Below are positions 51,525-61,362 of a stretch of DNA of 64,000 nt, piece after piece (position 1 is the first letter of the stretch; each line of letters begins with the position of its first letter). The stretch covers positions 62,001-126,000 of the forward strand of contig SVMM01000005.1 of the NCBI GenBank assembly GCA_015067435.1, in the 5' to 3' direction. Both the position numbers and the translations under genes were made by a program. The DNA is from Oscillospiraceae bacterium (GTDB lineage Bacteria; Bacillota; Clostridia; Oscillospirales; Oscillospiraceae). The notes beneath the pieces are model-generated. The model ran no database searches. It saw only the letters and a program-made list of their open reading frames with translations, and was not told the origin of the DNA.

Positions 51525-52520
51525 TTATTCCTGTTGATACAGCTCATAGACCTTCCGCGCGTGCTCCCGCATCTGTGCCGCAACGTGCTCCGGAGCGACG
51601 ACCTTCGCCTCGTCCGCGAAGCCGGAAACCCACGCGAAGAACTGCGGCGAGACCACGACCTGCGCGGAAACGGTGAAGTGCTCGTCGCCGTCCGGGACGA
51701 TCATGACGTCCTGACCGAGCCGGTCCAGCACCGCGCCGACCAGATGATTGGCAAAGCGGAGCCGGACGGTCTGTTCCTCGCCCGAGAACATCCCGAACAC
51801 CTTGCGGGCGTACACGGCCATGTCGAGTTCCTTGTAGGCCTCCATGCCGTCTCTCGGCTCCTCGGTGGCCGAGATGTTCGTCATCTTGTCGACGCGGTAG
51901 TGCTTGATGATCCCCGCGTCCGAATCGAAGGCGACCAGATAATAGTTCTCGTCGTCCCAGGTGAGCGCAAAGGGGCTTACTTTGTAGTAGTCTCCGTCCT
52001 TGCGATATTTGCGCTCCTTCGTTACGGTGTATTCGAAGTATTTGAACCGGATCTTCCGGTTTCGGGAGATGCCCGTATGGATCGCGTCCACATTATAGTA
52101 GATGGACTCGTTCATCGTCTTGACCCGGTTCGCCACATACACCTGGCGTTGGAGCAGCTGCGCCTCGTACGCGCTGGCGAGCTTCTCGATTTTTCGGATG
52201 AGCGACGTGGTCTTCTGATGCGTGATGAACTTCGACGACTGAACGCTGTCGACCAGCAGCTTCAGCTCCGGCAGCTCAAAGTTTCGGGACGCCACATAGT
52301 AACCGCCGCTGCGCTTGGAATCGATCAGCTCAATGTCCATGCCGAACAGGCGCAGCGCCTCGATGTCGTCATAGATGCTCTTGCGCTCCGCGGGAAAACC
52401 CTGCCCTTCGAGGTACTCGATGATCTTGCCCGTGGACGCGGGGTGGTCGGCGTCGGTGTTGTGCAGCAGAAAATCCATAACATACAGCAGTTTCAGCTTC
52501 TGATTGGATGTACGAGCCAT
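51525..52520 (-). CDS. WYL-domain transcriptional regulator
   Basis: A 331-residue regulator of the YobV/DeoR-WYL type. An N-terminal winged helix (NQKLKLLYVMDFLLHNT, then FPAERKSIYDDIEAL) is followed by a WYL domain (~residues 145-230: FKYFEYTVTKERKYRKDGDYYKVSPFALTWDDENYYLVAF) and a C-terminal WCX-type domain. WYL proteins sense nucleic-acid or nucleotide ligands and often repress defence or stress genes. AAGGA lies ten bases before the ATG. A palindrome at 52595 overlaps its own start of transcription, which suggests autoregulation. Confidence 0.92.
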   Translation of the reverse strand: MARTSNQKLKLLYVMDFLLHNTDADHPASTGKIIEYLEGQGFPAERKSIYDDIEALRLFGMDIELIDSKRSGGYYVASRNFELPELKLLVDSVQSSKFITHQKTTSLIRKIEKLASAYEAQLLQRQVYVANRVKTMNESIYYNVDAIHTGISRNRKIRFKYFEYTVTKERKYRKDGDYYKVSPFALTWDDENYYLVAFDSDAGIIKHYRVDKMTNISATEEPRDGMEAYKELDMAVYARKVFGMFSGEEQTVRLRFANHLVGAVLDRLGQDVMIVPDGDEHFTVSAQVVVSPQFFAWVSGFADEAKVVAPEHVAAQMREHARKVYELYQQE

Positions 52521-52594
52521 AAAATACCATTCCTTTCCGTCGGCACAGGCCGCCGGAGAGCTTTCCGCCCCCCGCGGCATGACAGGATCATACG

Positions 52595-52616
52595 CGCTTA
52601 CCTGTCCCAATAAGCG
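52595..52616. promoter_or_regulatory. Palindrome at the WYL gene start site
   Basis: CGCTTA and TAAGCG separated by ten bases, placed immediately after the -10 box of the WYL promoter; possible operator. Confidence 0.5.
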
Positions 52617-52617
52617 T

Positions 52618-52646
52618 ACTATATCACAAAAGGGGGGAGGCATCAA
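52618..52646 (-). promoter_or_regulatory. Promoter of the WYL regulator
   Basis: TTGATG, 17 bases, TATAGT on the minus strand. Confidence 0.6.
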
Positions 52647-52805
52647 CAAAAAACACGCTTGCCGCCGGGGTGGACACGCCATCGGGAATCGACTATAATG
52701 ACATCGGCGCGGAGCTCGGCACCGGGGAGCCGCTTCGCGCCTGCGAATGCTGTCGGGCGTACCACGCCTGCGCGCACACCGCCAAATCAGAATATGGAGT
52801 CTGCC

Positions 52806-53657
52806 ATGAGAGAATCAATTCTAAAAAACACCGCGAAAGCCTGCGGCGTGATATTCTGCGCTCTGATCGCTGTCCACGCATTTGAGGCGATTGTCCTGCG
52901 AACGGATGAAACTGTTTTCGGCGAGAACTTCATCAACAAGCTGTTCGGCATTTTCGTTCTCTGGCTCATCCTGCGGATACTGCAATGGAAATGGAACGAC
53001 ATCGGCTTTTCGGGGATCGGGTTCGCGCGAAACATTGCCCGCGGATTTCTGCTTGCCGCCGCTGCGTTCTCGGCTGCCTACGCCGCCGAATTCCTTGTTT
53101 TGAAGATACAGGGGCATACGGCCCGGCTTGACGTCTTTACGACGGGCTTTTCCCTGACAGGCGCGGCGACGGTACATCGCGGCGCCGGATTTATCCTGAT
53201 GTGCGTTTTCTTCAATGTGATCAATGTCATCATGGAGGAGGGCACGTTCCGCGGACTGTTTTACGGATTGCTGAAAACGGATCATTCCGTGCGGGCTGCC
53301 GTCCTGATCCAGGCGCTGCTGTTTGGCGTCTGGCACGTTGTGACGCCCCTGCATAACCTGATCGACGGCGATCTTGACGCCGCCGGCTTTGCCGGCTTGA
53401 GCATCGGGTACATCATCCTTGCCGGAATCATGGGCGTGAAGTGGGCGCTGATGTACCGGATGACAGGGAGTCTTTATGCGGGCATGGCGGATCACTTCTT
53501 CAACAACTGCATTGCCACAAATCTCCTGCATCTGACCACGGAAAGCGGCACGGATGAGCTGATGATCGTTCGGGTGCTGATCGCGCAGTTGCTCTCGTTC
53601 TTTGTTGTCCTGACGGCGCGAAAAATCCACGCTCGGAAAAGCTCTGGGCCTGTGTGA
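52806..53657 (+). CDS. CPBP-family intramembrane metalloprotease
   Basis: A 283-residue membrane protein with about eight helices. The three Abi/CPBP motifs are present: MEEGTFRGLFYG (EExxxR), LFGVWHV (FxxxH) and MADHFFNN (HxxxN). These proteases are related to Rce1 and are often linked with bacteriocin self-immunity or prenyl-protein processing. The ATG at 52806 has GGAG six bases upstream. It is divergent from the WYL regulator, which may control it (inference). Confidence 0.9.
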   Translation: MRESILKNTAKACGVIFCALIAVHAFEAIVLRTDETVFGENFINKLFGIFVLWLILRILQWKWNDIGFSGIGFARNIARGFLLAAAAFSAAYAAEFLVLKIQGHTARLDVFTTGFSLTGAATVHRGAGFILMCVFFNVINVIMEEGTFRGLFYGLLKTDHSVRAAVLIQALLFGVWHVVTPLHNLIDGDLDAAGFAGLSIGYIILAGIMGVKWALMYRMTGSLYAGMADHFFNNCIATNLLHLTTESGTDELMIVRVLIAQLLSFFVVLTARKIHARKSSGPV

Positions 53658-53836
53658 GTTCCGATCTGCTGGGGGAGTGCAGCCGTGCGGCGGCGGGGAA
53701 TCAAAAGCGGACGCCGTCTTGTGACATGAATCCGGCGGCCTGCAGAGCGGATCGGCATTTGTCGCCTCAAAAGCGACCTTTTGCCCCGGCGACCTCCGTA
53801 TAATGTGGTTACAAACCAACGAAGGAGGTCACTACC

Positions 53837-54478
53837 ATGAAGAACAATATCACCGAACTCGTTTGCATCCTTGACCGCAGCGGCTCTATGAGCGGGCTGG
53901 AGAGCGATACCATCGGCGGCTTCAACGCCCTGATCGAAAAGCAGAAGAAAGAGGACGGCGCCTGCCTCGTCTCCACCGTGCTGTTCAACACGGAGTGCGA
54001 CGTGCTCCACGACCGCGTGCCCATCGACGAGATCAAGCCCATGAAGGCGGAGGACTATGTGCCCGGCGGCTGCACGGCGCTGCTGGACGCCATCGGCGGA
54101 GCCATCCACCACATCGGGAACATCCACAAGTACGCCCGCCCCGAGGACGTGCCGGAGCACACGATCTTCGTTATCACCACCGACGGGCTGGAGAACTCCA
54201 GCAGGCGCTACGGCAGCGCCAAGGTCAAGCGCATGATCGAGCACGAGAAGGAGAAGTACGGCTGGGAGTTCATCTTCCTCGCGGCAAACATCGACGCGGT
54301 CGAGACGGCGGAGCACATCGGCATCTCCCGCAACCGCGCGGCGAACTATAAGGCCGACGACGTGGGCACCCAGAAGATGTACAGCGTCATGGCAAGGGCG
54401 GTCAGCGCCGTCCGCTGCGACGAGGAGCTTGCGGACGACTGGGCCGCGGATCTGGAGCGGGACGCGAAACGCAGATAA
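53837..54478 (+). CDS. VWA-domain protein
   Basis: A 213-residue cytoplasmic protein that is essentially a von Willebrand A domain. The metal-ion site is complete: ILDRSGSMSG (D13, S15, S17), a central threonine in PGGCTALLDAI and FVITTDGLENSS. GGAGG precedes the ATG. The ADP-ribosylglycohydrolase gene starts 23 bases downstream, so they are one operon. VWA proteins of this kind often act with chaperone-like ATPases, none of which is next to it. Confidence 0.88.
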   Translation: MKNNITELVCILDRSGSMSGLESDTIGGFNALIEKQKKEDGACLVSTVLFNTECDVLHDRVPIDEIKPMKAEDYVPGGCTALLDAIGGAIHHIGNIHKYARPEDVPEHTIFVITTDGLENSSRRYGSAKVKRMIEHEKEKYGWEFIFLAANIDAVETAEHIGISRNRAANYKADDVGTQKMYSVMARAVSAVRCDEELADDWAADLERDAKRR

Positions 54479-54501
54479 CCTGATTCGGGAGGGTGATAAG
54501 C

Positions 54502-55305
54502 ATGTTTGGAGCGATATTGGGCGATATCATCGGCAGCCCCTATGAGTTCAACGCCAACAACTACAAGGCGAAGGACTTCCCGCTGTTTTCGGAGAGGTCG
54601 AGCTTCACCGATGACAGCGTGATGACGCTTGCCGTGGCCGAGGCGTTCATGCGGGCGGGCCTGGACGCGGACGACGAGACCATCACCAGGAGCCTGCTTC
54701 GCGTGATGCCGGAGATCGGAAAGCGCTATCCGGACTGCGGCTACGGCGGGAGATTTATGGGCTGGGTCATGGGCGGCAGCCCCGAGCCCTACAACAGCTT
54801 CGGCAACGGCAGCGCCATGCGCGTGTCCCCGGTCGCGTGGTTCTATAATGATATGGACGCCGTGCGCCATGCCGCCCGCCTGAGCGCCGGCGTATCCCAC
54901 AACCACCCCGAGGGGTACAAAGGCGCGGAAGCGGTGGCTTCGGCCATCTTCCTCGCCCGGACGGGGCACGGCAAGGACGAGATCAGGCGGTACATTGCCG
55001 ACGAGTTTGGCTACGATCTCAGCCGCGCCTGCGACGAGATCCGCCCGGACTACCACATGGACGAGACCTGTCAGGGCAGCGTGCCCGAGGCGATCACGGC
55101 GTTCCTCGAAGGCACGGACTTTGAGGATGTTATCCGGACGGCGGTATCGCTTGGCGGAGACTCGGATACCATCGCGTGCATCGCGGGCGCCGTTGCGGAG
55201 GGCTTCTACGGCGTACCGGAGGAGCTGAAGGCGGAGTGTCGCAGGCGGCTCGCGCCGGATCTGCTGGAGATTCTGGAGCGGTTCGCGGCAATGATTGGCA
55301 AGTAA
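54502..55305 (+). CDS. ADP-ribosylglycohydrolase family protein
   Basis: A 267-residue protein of the DraG/ARH fold. FGAILGDIIGSPYEF starts the domain; SFTDDSVMTLAVAEA gives the first di-metal ligands, NSFGNGSAMRVSP the ribose contacts, and VSLGGDSDTIACIAGA the last metal pair. It should remove ADP-ribose from a protein or other target, or open a related glycosidic bond. The ATG at 54502 has GGGAGG nine bases upstream. Operon with the VWA gene. Confidence 0.92.
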   Translation: MFGAILGDIIGSPYEFNANNYKAKDFPLFSERSSFTDDSVMTLAVAEAFMRAGLDADDETITRSLLRVMPEIGKRYPDCGYGGRFMGWVMGGSPEPYNSFGNGSAMRVSPVAWFYNDMDAVRHAARLSAGVSHNHPEGYKGAEAVASAIFLARTGHGKDEIRRYIADEFGYDLSRACDEIRPDYHMDETCQGSVPEAITAFLEGTDFEDVIRTAVSLGGDSDTIACIAGAVAEGFYGVPEELKAECRRRLAPDLLEILERFAAMIGK

Positions 55306-56934: not shown

Positions 56935-57603
56935 CTAAATCCCTGCAAAAGATTTGATTTCCCGCTCCAGGAGGCGGAATACGTTTGCAACCAGAAAGCC
57001 GTCAGCAATCGCGTGATTCATGCGAACGGTCACAGGCATGACAAGTCTGCCGTTTTCCTCCCGGTACTTTCCCCAGTTGACGATAGGCGGGAAATACAGA
57101 TAGCCGTCCGGCAGTTCGATATTCAGTGAATCATAGGAAAGCCAGGAGATGTATGAAGCGTCAAACCAGTTGGGATACTTATCGCCGTCAAATTCATACT
57201 CATGATTGTCCTTCGCGTTTTCCAAATCGCGCAGGGCGTTTTCGTAAAATGTTTTATAATCCTCACAATATATGGAATGTACCGTCGTACAGGTTTCCGT
57301 GTCCTCGTGAAAGACGTAATGGCATGGATGAATAACGTCATAACAAATTAGCTCATCCGTGTTATACAGATAATCCATTTTATAATCGTCGCGCGAATTG
57401 AGCACCTTTGACAGGATATATAAGAAGTTAATGTAAAACTTGGTTTCCGTCTTCTGAGAATATTCGGCAAGATCCGTTACATCAATTCGCGCCGTCATGG
57501 AAGTCGAACATTTGCAGTCCTCCGAAAAGTGACGGAACACGCCTTTACGATAATATGTCTCTCTGTCAATTACCTTATAGTTCATTTGCGACATCTCAAG
57601 CAT
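56935..57603 (-). CDS. Chloramphenicol-acetyltransferase-family protein
   Basis: A 222-residue protein of the CAT fold: YRKGVFRHFSEDCKCSTSM at the start, FYINFLYILSKVLN, and the catalytic segment VRMNHAIADGFLVANVF with the histidine and aspartate of the HHxxxDG motif (first histidine is asparagine). Related CAT-like proteins in Clostridia do not always give chloramphenicol resistance, so the substrate is open. AAGGAGG precedes the ATG. The AT content is higher than in core genes, which fits transfer. Confidence 0.88.
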   Translation of the reverse strand: MLEMSQMNYKVIDRETYYRKGVFRHFSEDCKCSTSMTARIDVTDLAEYSQKTETKFYINFLYILSKVLNSRDDYKMDYLYNTDELICYDVIHPCHYVFHEDTETCTTVHSIYCEDYKTFYENALRDLENAKDNHEYEFDGDKYPNWFDASYISWLSYDSLNIELPDGYLYFPPIVNWGKYREENGRLVMPVTVRMNHAIADGFLVANVFRLLEREIKSFAGI

Positions 57604-58777: not shown

Positions 58778-61228
58778 TTATGAAAGCCTTGTTATCCAGT
58801 TCGACGCGGTTCTGAAAAACAGTTTTTTGGTGCCGACACCTGCAAAGTCGACTGTCATCAGGGTGTCCGCTCCCATAGGATTCAGATCAACGACCACGCC
58901 GTCACCAAAGATCCGGTGATTGATGCGATCGCCGACACGCAGCGTACTCGACGGACCGTCTGCAGGCGCGTGAGAGGCAACGAACGCCGAACGCGGCTGT
59001 GCGGAAACGGACGCGGCGATCCCGGCTAACGCGTGCATCTCCGCATCCGTCAGGGGCATGGCGTCCAGCCCCTGCTTGAGCCACATCCCGCTCTGGCGGA
59101 TGACCGATTCCGGGCTGTCGCTGCCAAGCCACGCGTCGCTCGCCTTGAAGTCCGATGTATGGTGGAGGGAGGAGATGATCGCCTCCTCCAGCCGCAGCCG
59201 CTGTTCCCTGTCATTGACCGGAAAAACGGCAAAGGTCATATTTTCACGAAGATAGCTTGTTACCGCCCGCTCGACCTCGGCCTCCTTCGCCCTGTTTTGC
59301 ATGCCGACGTACGGCGGCTTGGAGGTGTCCAGCGTCCATGTGCTCAAATACGGGTCGTTTTCCCTGTTCAGCATGGCCTTTCCAATATTCTTGCGAAAAA
59401 TGCTACCATTGTGGTTTTCCCGGACAAAATGGTCATACAGGCGCTGCTTTAAGCGGTTTGGAGACGTATGCGTACCGACTCTCACGATTCGCGGCAGGCC
59501 ATGGTAGGTTTCGCTGCGTTCAAACACCAGATAGATTCCGTCTTGAAACGGGATATCGTCAATGTCCTGCCAATGGTAGCGCGGCAGGGCGCAGAAGAGC
59601 TGATGAAGCTGCACGCCCCGCTCCGCCTGAGTTGCTTTTTCTGCGGGGACGGCATGCCCGGGCGCCGGAGACGGCCCGATCTGCCGGGAATTCCTGTCGC
59701 TTCCGTAGACCAGATCATTCAGATACGCGATCCGCTTGCCCATCGGAAGGCTGCCCAACGGGAGAGTGGCATTTGGCAACATCGGAAGCAGAAATTCGTA
59801 ATAGCTCCTTCCGGCGAGGATCATAAATGTATCCTCATTGACGCTGCAATTTGCCTTCAGCTGGTCATACACCCGATAGGTCCACTGAATCCTCTCCTCC
59901 CGCGACATGGTTTTCAGCGTCAGATCATACGGCTCCACAATGGCGTCCTCTGCCAGCAGTCCGTACTTTGCCGAAAGAATATAAATCTTGTCCGCGTGCT
60001 GTCTGGCATACTGATAGGAGAGCGAAAAAAGCGTGCTCGGTGAATAAAGCTCCCTCGCCATGCAGCGACAGGGCATTTTTTCCTTTGTGCAGGAAATCAG
60101 GGCAACCTTCATCGGAGCGCCGCTTTTTGCCGGAGCTTTGACAGGCTGCACGGAGGGGGAGGGCTTGCGGAACAGCTTCGCAAAGCGCGAAAAGAGATTG
60201 CGCTTTTTCTCTGCATCAGCCGGAAAAACCGGCGCTTCATCTTCACATTCGTCGTCGGCTTCGTCGGGCACGGCGCTCCGTGCGGCGATCGAGATCCCCA
60301 CGTCCACGGGATCGAGCTTCCCGTTGTGATTCCAGTCAAGCATCGTCGTTTCACCCGAATTCATTTGCTGCTTTTTTCGGAAGGTTGCCGTTTCTTGCAG
60401 AATATCTGTTCTTTTCACCTGATATCCGGTTCCCATCCAGCCCTTTGCCTGTGAATTGGTCAGATTGTTGGCCCACCACGCGGCGTATTTGCGTGCGCTG
60501 GGCGGCAGACTGAAGCCGAGGATCTTCTCGATCTCGGGAAAAGAGAGCACCAGCTCCTGCCTGCCGGATTGCAGCAGGTACGTTCCCAGGGGAGCATATT
60601 TGCTCCTGGAAGAAGGCCTTTCCACAGCCGCTCCCGGCGCGGCGGCGATCCCGGATCGCGGGCGGCTTCGCTGCGATCGCTGCGATGAATAATCGATCAC
60701 ATAGGTCCGTATGAACGGCCGGATATCGGTGCCGTTTTTCAGACAGCGCAGCAGGATTTCCCCGCAGGCACGGCTGTCACTGCCGGCGTGGTGATGGTCC
60801 AGACCGAGATGCAGATACTCGCAGAGCGTGTTCAGCTTATGGTTCGGCAGTTCCGGAAAAGCGCGGCGGCTCATCTGACAGGTGCATGCATACTTGACGC
60901 GGGGATACCAGCTGATGCCATAATAACGCAGGCATTTTGCCAGTACCGACATATCGAAGGGCGCGTTGTGCGCCACCAGCAAGCCGCCTTCCATCATCGG
61001 CGCCATATTATCCCACAATTCCGGAAATGTGGGCTGATCTGCCACCATTTCCGGCGTAATGCCGGTCAGGCTGATGTTGAATCGGTCAAAGTGCGTTTCT
61101 GGATTGACCAGAGAATAGAATTCGTCGACGATTTCTCCGTCTTCCACGATGGCGACGCCGATCGCGCTCATCCGGTCATTGGCGCTGTTCGGCGTTTCCA
61201 CATCAAATGCGATATATCTGTCTTCCAT
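58778..61228 (-). CDS. Multi-domain exonuclease - DUF7662 - DUF6884 - GIY-YIG-like fusion
   Basis: An 816-residue cytoplasmic protein. Residues 1-180: DnaQ-type 3'-5' exonuclease with all catalytic residues (FDVET with D9 and E11, HNAPFD with D92, HAGSD with H147 and D151). Residues ~211-285: DUF7662-like (PLGTYLLQSG, PPSARKYAAWWANN). Residues ~295-316: one EF-hand/dockerin-like loop (LDWNHNGKLDPVDVG). Residues ~373-510: DUF6884 (ALISCTKEKMPC, YILSAKYGLLAEDAI). Residues ~540-690: GIY-YIG-like nuclease region (DGIYLVFER, IVRVGTHTS, RLKQRLYDHF). Residues ~763-816: a small beta domain like the UvrD/PcrA tail (VGDRINHRIFGDGVVVDL). AGGAGG lies seven bases before the ATG. The make-up points to DNA processing, possibly defence. 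Confidence 0.85.
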   Translation of the reverse strand: MEDRYIAFDVETPNSANDRMSAIGVAIVEDGEIVDEFYSLVNPETHFDRFNISLTGITPEMVADQPTFPELWDNMAPMMEGGLLVAHNAPFDMSVLAKCLRYYGISWYPRVKYACTCQMSRRAFPELPNHKLNTLCEYLHLGLDHHHAGSDSRACGEILLRCLKNGTDIRPFIRTYVIDYSSQRSQRSRPRSGIAAAPGAAVERPSSRSKYAPLGTYLLQSGRQELVLSFPEIEKILGFSLPPSARKYAAWWANNLTNSQAKGWMGTGYQVKRTDILQETATFRKKQQMNSGETTMLDWNHNGKLDPVDVGISIAARSAVPDEADDECEDEAPVFPADAEKKRNLFSRFAKLFRKPSPSVQPVKAPAKSGAPMKVALISCTKEKMPCRCMARELYSPSTLFSLSYQYARQHADKIYILSAKYGLLAEDAIVEPYDLTLKTMSREERIQWTYRVYDQLKANCSVNEDTFMILAGRSYYEFLLPMLPNATLPLGSLPMGKRIAYLNDLVYGSDRNSRQIGPSPAPGHAVPAEKATQAERGVQLHQLFCALPRYHWQDIDDIPFQDGIYLVFERSETYHGLPRIVRVGTHTSPNRLKQRLYDHFVRENHNGSIFRKNIGKAMLNRENDPYLSTWTLDTSKPPYVGMQNRAKEAEVERAVTSYLRENMTFAVFPVNDREQRLRLEEAIISSLHHTSDFKASDAWLGSDSPESVIRQSGMWLKQGLDAMPLTDAEMHALAGIAASVSAQPRSAFVASHAPADGPSSTLRVGDRINHRIFGDGVVVDLNPMGADTLMTVDFAGVGTKKLFFRTASNWITRLS

Positions 61229-61333: not shown

Positions 61334-61362
61334 ATTGTACCCGCTCTTTTTCCATATATCAA
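61334..61362 (-). promoter_or_regulatory. Promoter of the nuclease fusion gene
   Basis: TTGATA, 17 bases, TACAAT on the minus strand, about 105 bases before the ATG at 61228. The rest of the 375-base gap to 61605 holds only the terminator at 61543. Confidence 0.65.

Follow-up and report, generated by a model that had tools for sequence, protein, structure and literature searches.

What might a single bacterial protein do that carries a DnaQ-type exonuclease at one end, a Tudor tail of the PcrA helicase type at the other and, between them, DUF6884 and DUF7662, two Pfam families of unknown function? The question is raised by a gene of 816 codons at 58778..61228, on the minus strand of a 64,000-nucleotide stretch of an Oscillospiraceae genome (assembly GCA_015067435.1, contig SVMM01000005.1, positions 62,001 to 126,000), which we refer to as the window. 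We find that its product is a catalogued, uncharacterised defence candidate core, PDC-M57 of the PADLOC collection, with new ends, the DnaQ-type exonuclease and the Tudor tail. Judging from the sequence, the protein may be a single-chain DNA-targeting nuclease built on this core, with the restriction of incoming modified or foreign DNA as its likeliest purpose; we hold this reading tentatively, at a probability of about 0.4. Statements attributed below to published papers refer to excerpts of those papers.

Both halves of PDC-M57 lie in one chain between new ends

The frame runs uninterrupted from the ATG at 61228 to the TAA at 58778, and its coordinates, strand and length are exactly those of the preliminary description of this stretch, which had proposed a multidomain fusion with two nuclease centres. 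The segments follow one another in the order DEDDh exonuclease, DUF7662, EF-hand-like loop, DUF6884, GIY-YIG-like domain and PcrA/UvrD-type Tudor tail. All regions named in that description are present in the 816-residue protein, based on Pfam, PADLOC and motif inspection, and the Pfam families RNase_T, DUF7662, DUF6884 and PcrA_UvrD_tudor all exceed their own curated cut-offs.

The DUF6884 segment (residues 375-504; 59717..60106, minus strand; Pfam E 8.9e-40) and the GIY-YIG-like domain (residues 538-736; 59021..59617, minus strand) match both halves of PDC-M57, respectively PDC-M57A (residues 374-505, E 1.3e-42) and PDC-M57B (E 1.4e-63), which are adjacent and in order in the one chain. In PADLOC names, PDC stands for 'phage defence candidate' (PMC11514479). 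PDC-M57 is not named in the literature searched, in which we also found nothing on DUF7662 or on two families met below, PDC-S48 and PF20815. DUF6884 occurs in two papers there, and nothing relevant on DpdL or DpdN turned up. The window protein differs from PDC-M57 in the fusion of the core with DnaQ, DUF7662, the EF-hand-like loop and the Tudor tail.

Part of this order is found in a 440-residue protein of the Rhodococcus plasmid pGZ02 (WP_258913978.1; L108:5683-7005), which has DUF7662 (4-74, E 3.1e-27), DUF6884 (108-241, E 2.3e-46) and GIY_YIG_2 (295-437, E 3.9e-13) in one chain. It differs from the window protein in sequence (24.9% identity over residues 375-688), in lacking Pfam matches to DnaQ and Tudor and in its nuclease, which is of the PF20815 type. 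The earlier statement that no system with this order of domains was known must be narrowed: because the core is in PADLOC and the DUF7662-DUF6884-GIY-YIG order already exists in Rhodococcus, the novelty lies in the DnaQ and Tudor ends. Relatives of the pGZ02 protein with 95% and 68% identity occur on two further Rhodococcus plasmids, and insertion sequences lie nearby.

The second half of the core is very probably a divergent GIY-YIG-like nuclease domain

Based on profile comparisons, residues 538-736 very probably form a divergent GIY-YIG-like nuclease domain. The label is indirect, because it comes by way of a match between the M57B profile and the GIY_YIG_2 segment of the Rhodococcus protein with the order DUF7662-DUF6884-GIY-YIG. 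In hhalign, this match scored 37.4-37.5 (probability 72, E 3.5e-05) and topped all 166 controls: the 66 chunks cut from 21 long open reading frames (ORFs) of the window reached at most 20.2, and the 100 shuffles at most 19.0. All nine M57B rows compared have the G and Y of the GIY motif, the glycine of YIG, H600 and E681 (numbered as in the window protein), and R596 is replaced by Cys in a single row (L056). The putative key residues are Y566, R583, G585, R596, H600 and E681, whose active-site roles we assume from what is generally held of GIY-YIG residues. An AlphaFold2 model of the domain from 6 sequences (predicted local distance difference test score, pLDDT, 76) has the expected hairpin-helix order.

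Several results speak against the assignment. Pfam makes no GIY-YIG call on the window domain, on 17 rows of the alignment of its relatives or on four more divergent M57B proteins, and the Tyr of YIG is replaced by an invariant Arg (R583). A comparison of M57B with a small canonical GIY-YIG set in hhalign gave a probability of 0.5 and an E of 0.12. Foldseek with the M57B model returned 0 matches at E ≤0.001 in the PDB or a viral library; one viral GIY-YIG_SF protein came up at E 2.6, and R.Eco29kI, a GIY-YIG enzyme, appeared at E 4.1 and 5.5 with a template modelling (TM) score of about 0.3, ranked under unrelated chains. A PDB sequence search with residues 538-736 gave no significant match, and hhalign found none between M57B and two GIY-YIG proteins of the same genome or two pieces of a haloarchaeal GIY-YIG protein. 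The proposed likeness to GIY-YIG nucleases thus holds as homology to the GIY_YIG_2 segment, and not as a Pfam call. Together with the exonuclease, two nuclease centres in one chain, as had been suggested, are likely. No anti-phage fusion of GIY-YIG with a DnaQ exonuclease, and no pairing of YaaA with GIY-YIG in defence, was found in the literature searched.

DUF6884 may sense unusual bases

The family motifs of DUF6884, CxxxK and LSAxxG (PMC11701544), are both found in the window protein, at C380-K384 and 418-423, so that the DUF6884 block read in the preliminary description has both a profile match and its motifs. The Pfam paper describes DUF6884 as kin of YaaA with a positively charged cleft, models YfjM as base-flipping and reports that YfjM was picked out among proteins interacting with abasic and RNA-base lesions (PMC11701544); in the literature searched, this was the only paper to deal with YfjM and abasic lesions, and the only one with PF21818. 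Escherichia coli YaaA and Bacillus subtilis YfjM are of the same superfamily as the window domain, with YaaA matching below the cut-off (Pfam E 0.0063; PDB 5caj E 0.36), but as described in these excerpts they are without fused nucleases like those of the window protein. The Dpd system shares the DUF6884/YaaA-type domain, since dpdC of Dpd islands bears DUF6884 (PMC11888242), and DpdC converts dPreQ0 to dADG (PMC12839542, there under DUF328); the window DUF6884, however, gives only a weak match to the PADLOC DpdC model (E 0.00034).

DUF6884 relatives occur on plasmids and phages, and a Variovorax copy sits after dpdB. The top phage match is in the Fusobacterium phage phiFN37 (39.9% over 143 residues), where the DUF6884 gene is flanked by a queuine-transferase-like gene and a queosine-precursor transporter gene (L109:3191-5018), perhaps as a DNA modification cassette. 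The GIY-YIG partners of DUF6884 are of three types, PDC-M57B, the PF20815 GIY_YIG_2 of the Rhodococcus plasmid protein and, in a neighbouring gene on a haloarchaeal plasmid, PF01541, and this variety of partners speaks for DUF6884 as the part that does the targeting. Our best guess at its role, by analogy with the base-flipping model for YfjM, the chemistry of DpdC and the gene context in phiFN37, is that it senses bases, perhaps 7-deazaguanines or damaged ones.

On the haloarchaeal plasmid, from Natrialbaceae (L107:6001-10865), the DUF6884 gene overlaps a gene annotated as GIY-YIG nuclease family, in agreement with Pfam (PF01541, E 4.5e-05). Immediately downstream of the two come a DUF1837 gene and a DEAD/DEAH helicase gene, an arrangement that looks Hachiman-like.

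The added exonuclease and Tudor tail

Residues 1-187 (60668..61228, minus strand) are a DnaQ-type DEDDh 3'-5' exonuclease, with Pfam RNase_T at 6-158 (E 1.6e-22). The residues D9, E11, D92, H146 and D151, which we take to have the catalytic roles of a DEDDh site, are all there, and the complete DnaQ active site claimed earlier is borne out by the profile and by these five residues. In PADLOC, the exonuclease part matches PDC-S48 (E 4e-29) and DEDDh (E 7.5e-29). The best exonuclease models overall are of the DNA polymerase III epsilon, DinG and PolC types. The window protein resembles PDC-S48 and standalone DnaQ-type exonucleases in this N-terminal part, to which the match is limited.

Residues 1-176 are 71-75% identical to standalone proteins in five genomes of the same genus and 58-63% identical in two more. 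The standalone DnaQ copies are ORFs of 179-201 residues in 21 of 27 loci, and in 26 of the 27 the sequence stops at most 21 residues past the aligned exonuclease domain, the exception having a BRCT tail. Within its own genome, the exonuclease region matches itself and one 1339-residue frame only, which by its length appears PolC-like; more distant kin could be missed by this search. In-place replacement of a resident DnaQ is not supported by the synteny of DnaQ loci, which gave only scattered common neighbours, in 3 of 16 loci, with a low-molecular-weight protein tyrosine phosphatase (LMW-PTP) gene near DnaQ in one genome (G083) and a deformylase gene near it in two (G107 and G020). Descent of the exonuclease within the genus is likewise not supported, as the DnaQ-domain tree places the five same-genus copies in a supported clade and the window copy outside it.

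At the opposite end, residues 765-805 (58814..58936, minus strand) match Pfam PcrA_UvrD_tudor (E 4.3e-08), in agreement with the UvrD/PcrA-tail-like end noted earlier. This tail is 53% identical to that of an 843-residue frame of the same genome, which matches PcrA (PDB 1pjr, E 2.2e-179). The Tudor domain of PcrA binds RNA polymerase, and mutation of H681, W684, K712 or L714 severely reduces the binding (PMC5397179). In an alignment with PcrA numbering derived from the published construct limits, H681, K712 and L714 correspond to H771, K801 and L803 of the window protein and W684 to F774, so that three of four are identical; the same W-to-F change is seen in the PcrA of the window's own genome and in the aligned DNA helicase II sequence. 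The likeness to the PcrA/UvrD C-terminal Tudor domain thus consists of the Pfam match and three of the four binding residues, while the window protein differs from PcrA/UvrD in having no helicase match in Pfam. We infer that the tail may dock the protein on RNA polymerase.

The core is sporadic and is mostly found without the new ends

By taxonomic set, the genomes with an M57B match at E ≤0.001 number 4 of 400 for the family, 5 of 345 for the order, 6 of 391 for the class and 19 of 398 for the phylum (overlapping sets, each including the window's genome), or 29 distinct genomes, with the proviso that some matches are weak or partial, one begins at contig base 1, and DUF6884 was checked for in part of them. 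The longest open frame over an M57B match outside the window has 504 residues, so none of the other 28 genomes has the long fusion, which is in one of the 29, the window's own. Among 18 members of the genus, several of them incomplete, the core was found only in the window's genome; matches in the other members are of the Tudor end, in PcrA-looking frames, plus one DUF7662 region. Likewise, among 72,556 plasmid and 50,697 phage records, none covered at least 80% of the window protein in one place.

At 15 of the 18 M57B loci looked at (L066-L083), DUF6884 and M57B are in one ORF of 357-481 residues. A common C-terminal domain of no assigned name is carried by 12 of these 15 fusions, and the remaining ones end in DUF7662 (G114), in a domain that we take to be HARE-HTH-like, with no Pfam match (G736), or in no further domain (L070). 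At another of the loci (L069, identical in sequence to L032) the genes are two and separate, and a small ORF with an EF-hand-like loop comes after them. Four viral contigs match the core. One encodes a fused protein of 470 residues with 55% identity, and the other three a relative with 33%, which is split into two ORFs in the one contig inspected (L104). Scans of the viral contigs with DnaQ and with DUF7662 gave no relatives.

Core relatives often adjoin restriction, BREX and other defence genes. A scan of 150 of the 152 ORFs that lie within 4.5 kb of 19 M57B loci matched 165 PADLOC families at 1e-10, compared with 22 families for 116 of 117 ORFs around 16 control loci with standalone DnaQ. 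The 25 families listed of the 165 include BrxHI (5.5e-302), type III restriction-modification, Zac and a cyclase. When large neighbours were picked by hand, one per locus, six of ten matched PADLOC at 1e-15, namely type IV-like, type III, PDC-S11, type IIG/I and two NERD-helicases. The tie to defence loci drawn in the preliminary description is seen for the core's relatives.

Weighing restriction against repair and other roles

If the window protein is a restriction nuclease, its parts might act as follows. DUF6884, which is kin to YaaA and to the DNA-modifying DpdC, would bind DNA and flip or recognise an unusual base; the GIY-YIG-like domain would cut at or near that base, and the fused DnaQ-type exonuclease would degrade from the new 3' end. 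DUF7662 would help select the DNA, and the PcrA-type Tudor tail would bring the protein to RNA polymerase and hence to DNA under transcription. Catalysis, base sensing, RNA polymerase binding, the order of events and the purpose are all what we infer here. The added exonuclease and RNA-polymerase-type tail may hint at the job of the core, which would be to make a DNA end and to act where DNA is transcribed, and the fusion offers a one-gene construct for PDC-M57.

Other observations weigh against this reading. The six-segment fusion was found in no other genome searched, so that no conservation supports its parts working together. The structure model of the full chain is poor (pLDDT 54), and a fold search with it retrieved nothing. 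Only one of 10 scanned neighbours of the window gene matches PADLOC at 1e-5, a WYL protein, and four of the ten hand-picked neighbours of the relatives do not match at 1e-15. The control loci with standalone DnaQ also have defence matches, among them mREase_IV (1.8e-230) and PDC-S34 (1.3e-118), and the comparison of 165 with 22 families is not matched for taxa, the M57B loci being drawn from the whole phylum and the controls from one order; it is made on longest-frame ORFs and counts families, several of which can match one protein.

A housekeeping nuclease of transcription-coupled repair would use the same parts otherwise: DUF6884 would find a damaged base, the GIY-YIG-like domain incise, DnaQ trim and the Tudor tail couple the protein to stalled RNA polymerase. 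We leave it as an alternative because the window copy is without defence surroundings (nothing beyond the WYL protein among the 10 neighbours) and is joined to a housekeeping-type exonuclease and tail. Apart from the PolC-like frame, no other DnaQ-type copy was found in the genome, and the lesion interactions of YfjM (PMC11701544) and the RNA polymerase binding of the PcrA Tudor domain (PMC5397179) also fit repair. The core itself, however, is sporadic in the family, order, class and phylum sets, and a search of the remaining 17 members of the genus, several of them incomplete, did not find it; its relatives are carried on viral contigs, those of DUF6884 on plasmids and phages, and defence genes lie near the core relatives. 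A repair role is thus somewhat unlikely, and we regard defence as more likely on account of the sporadic spread, the carriage on viral contigs and the neighbourhoods of relatives. In the literature searched, we found no known repair protein with the same domain order.

A more specific form of the defence reading is distinctly unlikely as a whole, namely a transcription-docked immune nuclease in which the PDC-M57 core captured a DnaQ exonuclease and, from a PcrA-like helicase, the tail that binds RNA polymerase, and which would inspect transcribed DNA, cut at a modified base and degrade from the cut. If DUF6884 instead acted on 7-deazaguanine like DpdC, the protein might modify or demodify bases while its nucleases attack unmarked DNA; the DpdC match and the 7-deazaguanine contexts of DUF6884 relatives point that way, but the match is weak, and we consider such a role very unlikely. 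RNase_T-type folds include RNA-active members, which would allow the domains to act on RNA or tRNA instead of DNA. The best exonuclease models, of DNA polymerase III epsilon, DinG and PolC types, and the papers on DUF6884 and Tudor, which point to DNA and transcription (PMC11701544, PMC5397179), make such action highly improbable. Known from one genome only, the gene might also be an accidental fusion, a fusion without function or an artefact of assembly, for which we see little room given 816 codons in one frame, catalytic motifs that are kept, a GC content at third codon positions of 0.59-0.74 in each segment and a contig of 194,424 bases.

DUF7662 and the EF-hand-like loop

DUF7662 occupies residues 212-285 (60374..60595, minus strand; Pfam E 1.3e-13). 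Motif inspection locates the EF-hand/dockerin-like loop that had been noticed in the linker, DWNHNGKLDPVD, at residues 298-309 (60302..60337, minus strand). The small ORF mentioned above, in an Oscillospiraceae metagenome-assembled genome (L032:9076-9318), encodes 80 residues directly after M57B, among them the same EF-hand-like motif and, towards the C-terminus, a hydrophobic stretch. Over 49 residues the ORF aligns at 44% with the linker of the window protein (E 4.5e-08, small database), and its product may be a third part of the system. When all the loci collected were scanned for the motif, it was found only at this locus and in copies of the window gene. In another genome of the window's genus (G012), a 239-residue DUF7662-like protein (L142:3867-4586) has an N-terminus that resembles, by eye, that of a 333-residue ORF upstream of the L032 core.

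Expression signals and neighbouring genes

The start of the 816-residue frame is immediately preceded by AGGAGG, and an alternative ATG 20 codons further upstream in the same frame would give 836 residues. A sigma-70-like promoter candidate, TTGATA-17-TACAAT, lies at 61362-61334 (61334..61362, minus strand), with a strong terminator-like hairpin (61582-61547) upstream of it. The gene's own promoter, as proposed earlier, is plausible from this position and is a consensus match only.

Elsewhere in the window, a WYL-domain protein, a weakly VWA-like protein and an ADP-ribosylglycohydrolase are encoded close together at 51525-55305. A CatA-like O-acetyltransferase of family 3 (NCBIfam E 8.6e-121) is encoded at 56935-57603, with a GC content of 0.44 compared to 0.59 for the window.

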